Source of the DNA: Neptunomonas sp.
GTDB taxonomy: Bacteria > Pseudomonadota > Gammaproteobacteria > Pseudomonadales > Balneatricaceae
DNA: 60,985 nt
Assembly: GCF_016744175.1 (NCBI RefSeq)
Contig: NZ_JADGEV010000024.1
Span: 1 to 60,985 of the forward strand
Direction of reading: 5' to 3'
Shown: one piece after another, positions 17,474 to 59,477 of the stretch
How positions within the stretch are numbered: position 1 is the stretch's first letter
How the letters are laid out: every line of letters starts with the position of its first letter
The notes under the pieces: generated by a model
The model's database searches: none
What the model saw: the letters and a program-made list of their open reading frames with translations, nothing else
What the model was told of the DNA's origin: nothing
Translations under genes and position numbers: made by a program

Positions 17474-18016
17474 CTACAGACCTTCGTAGGCCAGCATGGT
17501 ATAGACAGGAATGCCCGCTTCCTGAATACGGGTCGAGCCATGTAGATCAGGTAAGTCTACAAGTGCCGCGCTCTCTATAACGTCAGCGCCAAGTTTTTTG
17601 ATGAGAGTGCAAGCGGCTAAGATAGTCCCGCCAGTAGCAATTAAATCATCAAAGACTAGTACTTTGTCGCCAGGGCCTACAGAGTCGATTTGCATCTCTA
17701 CCGCAGCACTTCCATATTCAAGGTCATACTCTTGGTGAACAGTTTCTCCAGGAAGTTTGCCTTTTTTGCGTACCAGAACCAAAGGCTTCTGCATTTGGTA
17801 GGCCATAATTGAAGCAATGAGAAAGCCTCTAGCATCGATACAAGCGATGTGTGTCAGCTCTGAATCCATATATCGTTGAATAAAAGCATCAGCGACCATG
17901 CGTAATGCTTTTGGGTCTTTGAAAATTGGCGTGATGTCACGAAAGACAACACCTGGTTCAGGCCAGTCAGGAAGTGAGCGGATCACTGATTTGACATAAA
18001 ATTCGTCGTAAGACAT
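17474..18016 (-). CDS. apt: Adenine phosphoribosyltransferase
   Basis: Apt salvages adenine to AMP using PRPP. The 180-residue product has the family length and the PRPP-binding motif VLVFDDLIATGGT at 119-131. It also has the PGVVFRDITP segment near residues 21-30 and GETVHQEY (90-97). In pseudomonads apt also lies next to the FNR-type regulator gene anr, and the same neighbourhood is seen here, although a candidate small RNA gene separates the two. Confidence 0.95.
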   Translation of the reverse strand: MSYDEFYVKSVIRSLPDWPEPGVVFRDITPIFKDPKALRMVADAFIQRYMDSELTHIACIDARGFLIASIMAYQMQKPLVLVRKKGKLPGETVHQEYDLEYGSAAVEMQIDSVGPGDKVLVFDDLIATGGTILAACTLIKKLGADVIESAALVDLPDLHGSTRIQEAGIPVYTMLAYEGL

Positions 18017-18054
18017 GTACTAATAGCTCCTCAATCAAGTCGGAACGTCAACGC

Positions 18055-18096
18055 TTGATATGGCTCAATGTTTACAAAAAGAATATACGGTTTAAT
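18055..18096 (+). promoter_or_regulatory. FNR box with class II promoter geometry (rightward)
   Basis: TTGATATGGCTCAA at 18055-18068 matches 9 of 10 fixed positions of the FNR consensus. Exactly 22 nt later comes a -10-like TTTAAT (18091-18096), so the box is centred at -41.5 relative to a start near 18103. That is the spacing of an FNR-activated class II promoter. Read the other way it would give a start only about 4 nt before apt, which is less plausible. Confidence 0.65.
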
Positions 18097-18102
18097 CACT
18101 GT

Positions 18103-18180
18103 GTTGGGTTACACATAGAGATGGCTACTTCTTTGTGCAACTATTTTTAGCGCCGTTCAATTATTTGAACGGCGTTTTTT
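18103..18180 (+). ncRNA. Candidate FNR-activated small RNA
   Basis: About 78 nt run from the predicted FNR-dependent start to an intrinsic terminator (10-bp GC-rich stem and T run). No coding frame with a ribosome site is present. The terminator is oriented rightward, yet no protein gene lies upstream of it on this strand, so something else must use it. The single-stranded U-rich stretch before the stem (CUAUUUUUAG) would suit Hfq binding. By analogy with enterobacterial FnrS and pseudomonad PhrS it could repress aerobic genes when oxygen falls; the sequence itself is not recognisably either. Confidence 0.6.
18151..18180 (+). terminator. Rho-independent terminator of the candidate sRNA
   Basis: The stem CGCCGTTCAA / TTGAACGGCG is a perfect 10-bp pair around loop TTAT, followed by TTTTTT. 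On the opposite strand the stem is followed by CTAAAAATAG, which lacks a U run, so the element faces rightward and is not the fnr terminator. Confidence 0.85.
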
Positions 18181-18198
18181 TATGTGCAGCATCTTGTT

Positions 18199-18981
18199 TT
18201 ATAAAGAGAGCTGTTGGATGTCGCTATCTTTATCGATATCTTTGCCAGGACACTCACCTGAAACTTCATATAAACCGTCTAAATCAAGAAGGTCCAGTTC
18301 TTTACCATCAACTTGAATCAGATTGTTTTTCTGAAAGCGGGTAAAGATACGGCTAACGGTTTCTACTGCTAATCCTAAATAATTACCTATTTCATTACGC
18401 GACATAGATAATCTGAATTTATGAGCAGAATAGCCTCGTGCTTGAAAACGTTGTGATAGTTTTACGAGGAAAGTGGCAACTCGCTCTTCTGCATTCTTTT
18501 TAGAGAGAAGGAGCATCATTTGTTGGTCATCTCTAATCTCTTTGCTCATAGTTCGCATCACTTGGCGGCGCAGTTCTGGTAGCTGGCCACAGAGTGTATC
18601 TAAATTCTCGAACGGAATTTCACATACCGTTGTTGTTTCCATGATTTTAGTAGAAACCGGATATTGTTGGCTATCATATCCACTTAGACCAACCAGTTCT
18701 CCTGGGAAGTAAAAGCCAGTGATTTGTTCTTCCCCTTCGTTTGTTATTGTGTAGCTTTTTACGCTCCCTGCGCGGATAGCAAAAACCGATTCAAAATTAT
18801 CACCTTGGTGAAATAAGTGATCTCCCTTTTTTAAGGGACGGCTTTTTTCAATAATATTATCAAGACTGTCCATCTCAGTGTTGTTTAAAGACACGGGAAG
18901 ACAAAGTGAGCTTATGCTGCATGTATTACAATGAGCTTGTTGCAGGCTATGTAGTTTCCCTTCTTTTTTTATATCGCTCAT
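18199..18981 (-). CDS. fnr: FNR/ANR-type oxygen-sensing transcriptional regulator
   Basis: This is a CRP/FNR-family activator that binds an oxygen-labile 4Fe-4S cluster and controls low-oxygen respiration. The 260-residue product keeps all four cluster cysteines: C18, C21 and C27 in the N-terminal [11 protein letters not shown] segment, and C120 in [10 protein letters not shown] cyclic-nucleotide-like barrel, a long dimer helix and a helix-turn-helix follow (about 194-217). The recognition helix [12 protein letters not shown] predicts the FNR site TTGATNNNNATCAA, which is found upstream of ccoN, hemN and the sRNA locus. It could equally be named anr. AGGA lies eight bases before the ATG. Confidence 0.95.
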
Positions 18982-18997
18982 GGCCGGTTCCTGTGTT

Positions 18998-19039
18998 TGT
19001 TACATAATGAGAGGCTACTCAGCCGCTAATTATGTAACA
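18998..19039 (-). promoter_or_regulatory. Long symmetric stem-loop in the hemN-fnr gap
   Basis: Two perfect 11-nt arms, TGTTACATAAT and ATTATGTAACA, enclose a second 4-bp stem (GGCT/AGCC) with symmetric 4-nt internal loops. As RNA on the fnr strand this is a two-tier hairpin ending 16 nt before the fnr ATG, leaving AGGA free. As DNA it is a pair of inverted half-sites about three helical turns apart. No U run follows, so it is not a normal terminator. Confidence 0.5.
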
Positions 19040-19064
19040 TTTCGAGGGAGGCGTGAAGCATCTA

Positions 19065-59089: not shown

Positions 59090-59174
59090 AACATCCATGT
59101 AAGTAATAACTACGATGTTTTGACTCCCTTTAATAAAAATCTTATAGTCGTTTTCCGGATGAGTCATCCGGCTT

Positions 59175-59355
59175 CGTTCTCGGGGCGGGGTGCAATTCCC
59201 CACCGGCGGTAAAAATAGGGAGTAACGCATGTTATTTCCTTATTTGAGCCCGCGAGCGCCTTTTATTCTTAGAGCTGTTATAGCCTCTGATAAAAGGGTC
59301 AGCAGATCTGGTTAAACTCCAGAGCCGACGGTTATAGTCCGGATGATAGAGAGCG
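59175..59355 (+). ncRNA. FMN riboswitch (RFN element)
   Basis: The conserved RFN core is clear: CTCGGGGCGGGGTGCAATTC, then CCCCACCGGCGGTAA, CCCGCGAG, a long variable arm, GGTCAGCAGATCTGG, and AGCCGACGGTTATAGTCCGG followed by GATGATAGAGAG. The closing P1 arms are CGTTCTC and GAGAGCG. It controls the lumazine synthase gene that starts about 120 nt downstream. I see no clear terminator in the expression platform; TTATTTCAG/CTGAATAA forms a stem in the gap. Confidence 0.95.
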
Positions 59356-59477
59356 TGTCAGACAAGATCACACCACTGTTATTTCAGTGAGCTGAATAAT
59401 GCCCATTAGATTTTCTGTTATGGTCATTAATTGCCTGCCCGTTCGCCCTGATTCAGTCATTTTTATGGGTTTTACCA

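Follow-up and report, generated by a model that had tools for sequence, protein, structure and literature searches.

Introduction

FNR is the textbook example of an oxygen switch, and its abundance is treated as being set mainly at its promoter. Oxygen- or ANR-responsive small RNAs (sRNAs) include PhrS of Pseudomonas aeruginosa, and the gonococcal sRNA of the FnrS type is AniS. FnrS has its own intrinsic terminator, like the putative sRNA described here, while its gene lies between ydaN and dbpA, unlike the apt-fnr locus of this study. Feedback of a comparable form is known for OmrA/OmrB and ompR, where sRNAs made under a regulator act back on the mRNA of that regulator. Both the regulator and the RNA are different there.

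FnrS of the enterobacteria is activated by FNR from a class II site at -41.5, according to the part of PMC3032703 that deals with its promoter, and the promoter sequence of the putative sRNA described here has a site of this class at the same position. The two RNAs have no detectable sequence homology. As summarized in a section of PMC8139620, FnrS represses more than 30 mRNAs, whereas the conserved predicted target here is fnr itself. The gonococcal FnrS-type sRNA is a functional equivalent outside the enteric bacteria. It is anaerobically induced, a class II FNR site is predicted for it, and it forms a 5′ stem-loop as well as a terminator, but it is encoded antisense within a coding region, and the passages of PMC3032703 that describe it mention neither an fnr neighbour nor a feedback target. 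PaiI of P. aeruginosa, an oxygen- or ANR-responsive sRNA of a gammaproteobacterium, depends on NarXL in the portion of PMC8139620 devoted to it. ErsA, also of P. aeruginosa, is alike in acting on the mRNA of an FNR homologue, anr. In the sections of PMC8575079 on this interaction, however, the predicted pairing falls within the anr coding sequence (+28 to +49) and is activating, and ErsA is not presented there as an Anr-driven gene beside its target.

The window analysed here is a 60,985-nt contig of Neptunomonas sp. (NZ_JADGEV010000024.1). An earlier note, made from its letters alone, had proposed an FNR-activated sRNA gene next to fnr. The open-access literature searched on sRNAs of Neptunomonas, Marinobacterium and Neptuniibacter and on feedback at the fnr mRNA contained no report of this sRNA. 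Our analysis indicates that the locus is real and conserved, is unmatched in Rfam, is FNR-activated as judged by its anatomy, and is probably a feedback regulator of fnr. If this is true, a conserved FNR-activated sRNA beside fnr that pairs with its mRNA would extend the FNR switch with an RNA arm, and FNR-dependent sRNAs would appear to arise anew in different bacterial groups.

Results and Discussion

Anatomy of the sRNA locus

The features of the locus are listed in Table 1. The FNR box and the -10 element are present where the earlier note had placed them, and the class II start near 18103 that it proposed agrees with the box centre and with a spacing of box, -10 and start that is fixed across copies. 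The rightward terminator is a strong stem, and since apt and fnr are both on the minus strand, the plus strand upstream of it is indeed free of protein genes. Two other statements held in part. An AUG in the loop (18121) opens a frame of nine codons, though it has no Shine-Dalgarno sequence. The window does have a U-rich stretch ahead of the stem, a feature that bears on possible dependence on Hfq or another chaperone, but it is not conserved in other genera. The predicted transcript from 18103 has a folding energy of -28.5 kcal/mol (z -6.2), and 0/200 shuffles were equally stable.

Table 1. Predicted features of the sRNA locus and of the genes discussed in the text (window positions unless a genome is given).
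Feature	Position	Strand	Remarks
FNR box TTGATATGGCTCAA	18055..18068	+	9/10 to TTGAT-N4-ATCAA; centred at -41.5 (class II)
-10 element TTTAAT	18091..18096	+	exactly 22 nt past the FNR box
Putative small RNA, ~79 nt	18103..18182	+	start set at 18103, the first nt of the conserved block
5′ hairpin, sRNA nt 6-39, conserved apical loop GAGAUGGCUACUUC	18108..18141	+	fold and alignment
Intrinsic terminator, GC-rich stem and U tract	18149..18182	+	stem 18149-18176, 12 pairs including G-T; seven T at the end
apt, adenine phosphoribosyltransferase	17474..18016	-	flank, divergent from sRNA; NCBIfam NF002634
fnr, predicted activator and predicted target of sRNA	18199..18981	-	NCBIfam NF008365, 333.7 bits, cut-off 228
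hemN, next gene after fnr			NCBIfam TIGR00538
Predicted fnr promoter TTCACG-17-CATAAT	19029..19057	-	promoter scan
First 14 nt of predicted fnr mRNA, TGAGTAGCCTCTCA	19008..19021	-	complementary to sRNA loop
Second pairing segment of fnr leader	18995..19004	-	UGUAAC with sRNA nt 6-11, AAC with nt 1-3; co-fold
hvfA-like peptide gene	G002:C1:54315-54722 (inside L178)	minus	G005 orthologue is L297

The predicted fnr promoter comes from a scan that on its own gave 7 promoter-like sites against 7.7 in shuffles. The earlier note had placed the sRNA beside its predicted activator, and the neighbour is a true FNR by its family score and its cysteines: CX2CX5C and a fourth Cys at position 120, read off the sequence, as in oxygen-sensing FNR. 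It also contains the recognition-helix motif ETVSR. Four further CRP/FNR-type matches in the window's genome are much weaker than the fnr neighbour, so a DNR-type activator may act at the sRNA promoter instead. The box was also considered as a site serving apt. This was rejected because the -10 and the plus-strand start are conserved and the 22-nt spacing from box to -10 is fixed, whereas copies differ in how far the sRNA start lies from the apt match (72 to 140 nt). Sequence comparison strongly supports the existence of the putative sRNA and its class II promoter anatomy, and from it we infer both FNR dependence and fnr targeting.

At gathering score, no Rfam family was found at the sRNA locus of the window or at 13 related loci. 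PhrS and PaiI are covered by this result only so far as the library contains them. The earlier note had seen no likeness to FnrS by eye, and the model search concurs: RF01796 stayed below the cut-off in 9/9 sRNA-bearing genomes, none of its weak matches there fell at the sRNA locus, and FnrS was not among the Rfam matches of 17950-18260 up to an E value of 10. Homology to FnrS was rejected on this basis. The same model exceeded its cut-off in 1/14 control genomes. Set beside the functional kind, the FNR-activated base-pairing sRNAs, the locus has, at the level of sequence, its own FNR-site promoter, a non-coding structure and an intrinsic terminator, and its pairing with an mRNA in trans is a prediction. 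It defines an RNA family with a model, a seed alignment and one clear predicted target. The sole Rfam match over threshold in the window is an FMN riboswitch at 59172-59358 on the plus strand (RF00050, 106.1 bits), which is ordinary.

Conservation and distribution

The 182-nt region was recovered in 7/8 genomes of the window's genus. A covariance model was built from 13 sRNA copies and used to search the family, order and class. In the window's family the sRNA was identified in 45/116 genomes and 8/16 genera, in single copy each, the bearers including Neptunomonas, Marinobacterium, Neptuniibacter and Pontibacterium. The order and class searches used stricter filters, with which weak copies can be lost. 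The model matched 12 of 390 genomes of the order, 11 of them from the window's family, and in 369 genomes of the class it matched none but the window's own. The one match outside the family in the order search (L073 in G324) was judged to be chance because the terminator alone matches and the FNR box is absent. A pattern scan of a contig collection of 84,980 species, which would miss diverged copies such as L106-L108, generated 32 stretches. Neptunomonas, Marinobacterium, Neptuniibacter and Pontibacterium account for 31 of these and an Oceanospirillaceae MAG for the other. The earlier note had raised conservation and synteny in Oceanospirillales; the conserved locus is narrower than that, with 45/116 genomes of a single family.

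The order apt (minus), sRNA (plus), fnr (minus) is kept in 45/45 copies, and in this arrangement box, -10 and terminator are conserved throughout (45/45), in agreement with the comparative predictions of the earlier note. The FNR box was found in 44 copies by one pattern and in the remaining copy, L111, by separate reading. Box and -10 are separated by 22 nt in 43/45 copies and by 23 nt in 2/45, and the -10 ends 6 nt (38/45) or 7 nt (7/45) before the conserved GTTGG block. The sequence between box and -10 is poorly conserved. In 2.4 Mb of G002, another genome of the genus Neptunomonas, the box-gap-(-10) pattern, which was derived from the copies themselves, occurs once on both strands together, at the sRNA promoter.

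Only 19 forms of the first 40 nt occur among the 45 copies, one of them in 15 copies. The 5′ end, GUUGGGUUAC, is identical in 43/45 copies and is kept in L106, L107 and L108 despite a changed loop. Taken together, the fixed promoter spacing, the near-invariant 5′ half and the pairing kept in a changing terminator mean that conservation of the putative sRNA is beyond chance.

Two copies are strongly diverged (L107 in G024 and L108 in G065). They retain the promoter and the 5′ end, and the hairpin is now of a GGCC-GGCC type. G006, a genome of the window's genus, is a different case: the searches recovered neither the sRNA nor an apt gene beside fnr (L015), and the fnr leader element is missing. 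This is perhaps a natural loss of the entire circuit. A single origin was examined with an Fnr tree of 30 rows and was not adopted. Seven changes would be needed, 16/27 inner branches were open, and the tree was mostly unresolved.

Predicted structure of the transcript

Covariation was examined in an alignment of 43/45 copies, L046 and L061 being omitted as identical rows. The alignment was fitted to the model and is therefore biased towards that structure; in it 95.1% of helix cells are paired, whereas shuffles reach 77.4% and slid controls 34-44%. The fraction of cells paired and the covariation score both exceed all 500 shuffles, while pairs with changes on both sides are not above them (11 versus 9.5; 69/500 equally high). 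In the terminator, 9/9 modelled pairs have changed on both sides and 96.0% of cells are paired. The 5′ hairpin has 94.4% of cells paired, both-sided changes in 2/12 pairs, and an A-U/U-A exchange at columns 15/31. A fold of the ~79-nt transcript into a 5′ hairpin and a terminator is supported by these comparisons, with covariation mainly in the terminator.

The fnr leader as a predicted target

Reading of the fnr upstream region revealed that the leader carries a complement of the sRNA loop. This complementarity is new with respect to the earlier note. In the window, the duplex between the loop and TGAGTAGCCTCTCA has a predicted energy of -18.3, or a net -9.2 kcal/mol once both RNAs are opened. 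The fnr -10 reads CATAAT or GATAAT in 45/45 leaders. When leaders are anchored on it, the element begins a few nt from the predicted mRNA start and ends at about +14 in most of them; exceptions include L049, L051, L052, L066, L106 and L108.

The loop-leader duplex was compared with dinucleotide shuffles. It reached p≤0.05 in 33/45 loci and p≤0.01 in 21/45, the 45 loci being related and not independent. All leaders of four genome groups passed at 0.05 (g1 7/7, g8 5/5, g16 10/10, g9 4/4), and the others passed in part or not at all (g5 3/8, g7 4/8, g3 0/2, g11 0/1). Values of 0.05-0.2 were obtained for L051, L052, L055, L068, L106 and L107, and values above 0.2 for L049, L058, L060, L061, L063 and L108. 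In L058, L060 and L061 it is the sRNA 5′ end that has a match to the leader, of 8 bp. A 26-nt window set solely by the fnr -10 was favoured over other windows of the same locus in 34/45.

Loop and 5′ end tested jointly gave 31/45, versus 9/300 random G002 leaders, for which 65-nt instead of 75-nt windows were used, and 1/14 genomes without the sRNA (L034, 0.017). The difference between genomes with and without the sRNA has a Fisher p of 8.5e-5, which ignores kinship. The set without the sRNA holds 14/15 genomes (L033 has no readable fnr leader and was omitted), several of them distant, with start codons picked by a simple rule. The loop alone, with letter shuffles, gave 0/14 in these leaders, the lowest p being 0.063. 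At L015 of G006, the Neptunomonas genome without the sRNA, the fnr element is absent by this measure as well (p 0.70).

Co-folding showed a gain in 30/45 loci and extends the predicted loop-leader pairing towards the fnr ribosome site. In the window, sRNA nt 1-3, 6-11 and 16-28 co-fold with leader nt 25-27, 18-23 and 2-13, respectively. A second contact through the sRNA 5′ end is significant (p≤0.05) in 15/45 leaders, distributed as g16 8/10, g5 4/8, g7 2/8, g8 1/5 and g1 0/7. In the window's genome, sRNA nt 1-10 alone gave no significant match to the leader (p 0.51). The fnr element of the window (19008-19021) is also an almost perfect inverted repeat (TGAG-N6-CTCA). A 5′-terminal hairpin of the fnr mRNA could form from it, so the first sRNA contact may be loop to loop.

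Among 2104 leaders of G002, that of fnr ranks 3rd by loop duplex and 18th by co-fold gain; with such single-genome ranks, the case for the target rests on conservation. Swapping loops among loci gave a weak result over all pairs (0.58 of foreign loops were worse). In L070 and L107 the own loop fits the own leader clearly better than the other loops tried, while L106 gains hardly. The own loop of L109 scores -15.6 on its leader and is no better than most others (-16.0, -16.0, -15.5, -16.0 and -14.0), and in L072 and L113 the loop has changed in ways that make its pairing with the own leader weaker. Pairing in trans with the fnr mRNA is put forward as a strong comparative prediction.

Feedback model and alternative explanations

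We consider it likely that the locus is a gene for a trans-acting sRNA in a feedback circuit that runs from FNR through the sRNA to the fnr mRNA, most likely as repression. We also lean towards a dedicated autoregulatory RNA, driven by FNR from the neighbouring gene, whose whole 5′ half would be selected for pairing with the fnr leader and which would be gained and lost together with its site. At low oxygen, [4Fe-4S] FNR would bind the box at -41.5 and activate transcription from 18103, as the class II anatomy suggests. The ~79-nt transcript would fold into the 5′ hairpin and the terminator. Its loop is predicted to pair with the very start of the fnr mRNA, and the sRNA 5′ end with a segment further down the leader, in the direction of the ribosome site. 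After active FNR has accumulated, the sRNA would lower FNR synthesis or shorten the life of the fnr mRNA.

The loop AUG raises the question of a short coding RNA in place of an sRNA. An AUG is found within sRNA nt 13-24 in 42/45 copies, and its frame reads MATSLCN in 28/45. It has no Shine-Dalgarno sequence, however, and is absent in L072, L113 and L114. The length of its frames ranges from 2 to more than 25 codons, indels shift them in Neptuniibacter, and the hairpin cells are paired to the extent given above. We give this reading almost no credence, and a coding function was rejected for want of a Shine-Dalgarno and of a constant frame. The sequence common to the sRNA loop and the fnr leader could also be a DNA site for one repressor, with no contact between RNAs. 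Several fnr elements are near-palindromic at +1 (TGAG-N6-CTCA; AAGT-N4-ACTT), as such a site might be. Palindromy is not evident by eye in the g5, g7 and g9 leaders, of which 11/20 nevertheless pass the loop test. Moreover, the sRNA copy sits within an RNA hairpin (again with 94.4% of cells paired), and the pairing runs on into a second, non-palindromic part of the leader. A shared DNA site is very unlikely on these grounds.

For the RNA feedback model, negative feedback on fnr is most likely, and the sign is its weakest step. Repression is favoured because the mRNA 5′ end lies within the predicted duplex, which extends in the direction of the ribosome site. When the element was masked, the ribosome site became easier to open in 21/42 distinct leaders and harder in 5/42, so a plain block fits poorly. 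The leaders that open more easily would suit the opposite sign, in which the sRNA activates fnr by freeing the ribosome site or protecting the mRNA 5′ end, giving positive feedback. Several Neptuniibacter leaders fold the element against the start-codon region, where masking cuts the opening cost (in L111 from 6.8 to 2.6 kcal/mol), and ErsA raises Anr in P. aeruginosa according to the part of PMC8575079 on that pair. The change in opening is less than 0.5 kcal/mol in 4/7 Neptunomonas leaders, though (2 easier, 1 harder), and opening is harder in the three distinct g9 leaders shown. Second-site pairing, in the leaders where it is significant, precedes the start codon and falls on the same side as the ribosome site. 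On balance we regard activation as unlikely.

Other candidate targets

An FnrS-like sRNA, activated by FNR and acting through its 5′ end or loop on many mRNAs of aerobic metabolism, with fnr as one target or none, is a possible reading that we find somewhat doubtful. The near-invariant 5′ end, retained where the loop has changed, would fit it, as would a candidate target, hvfA: in G002 and G005 its leader can form 11 and 12 bp with the sRNA 5′ end, immediately before the ribosome site. Genome-wide counts of seeds with at least 9 pairs, in which shuffled controls were tallied on one leader in four and scaled up fourfold, stayed within the shuffled range for the 5′ end (17 versus a mean of 12.4, range 0-28) and the loop (17 versus 22.6, range 4-64). 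Accessibility-corrected duplexes over the 2104 G002 leaders showed no excess over six shuffled sRNAs. The top-10 mean energy was -16.6, compared with -16.1 to -19.3, and the top-50 mean was weaker than for all six. The arrangement of seed complement, ribosome site and ATG was not enriched over a reversed control (9 versus 47 and 28 versus 41). Exact complements of the 5′ seed produced 72 matches in 8 genomes, of which 30 were examined as loci.

The eno match was the sole 5′-seed complement, besides the sRNA gene, common to more than two genomes. It occurs in five, including G006, which lacks the sRNA, and was discounted because it lies in eno codons, where the protein sequence accounts for it. 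The mtnD leader, with the best G002 loop match (11 bp), was also rejected. In the 10 orthologues read, several of whose starts are doubtful, the match is no longer than 7 bp.

The hvfA-like gene encodes a peptide with EGKCG repeats and is followed by a DUF692-type gene. Its leader has 8 bp to the sRNA 5′ end in G066, but 7/10 hvfA leaders have no 8-bp match near the start, and the hvfB-type partner has no match in the window's genome at E≤1e-15. Within the genus Neptunomonas, a close hvfB-type partner (E<1e-45) occurs in two genomes, G002 and G005. As an sRNA target, hvfA is a weak lead suggested by sequence matches. The DUF692/hvfB-type gene itself (E<1e-45; L296-L305) was found in 10/19 tested genomes with the sRNA and 0/7 without it, a co-occurrence that may be plain kinship.
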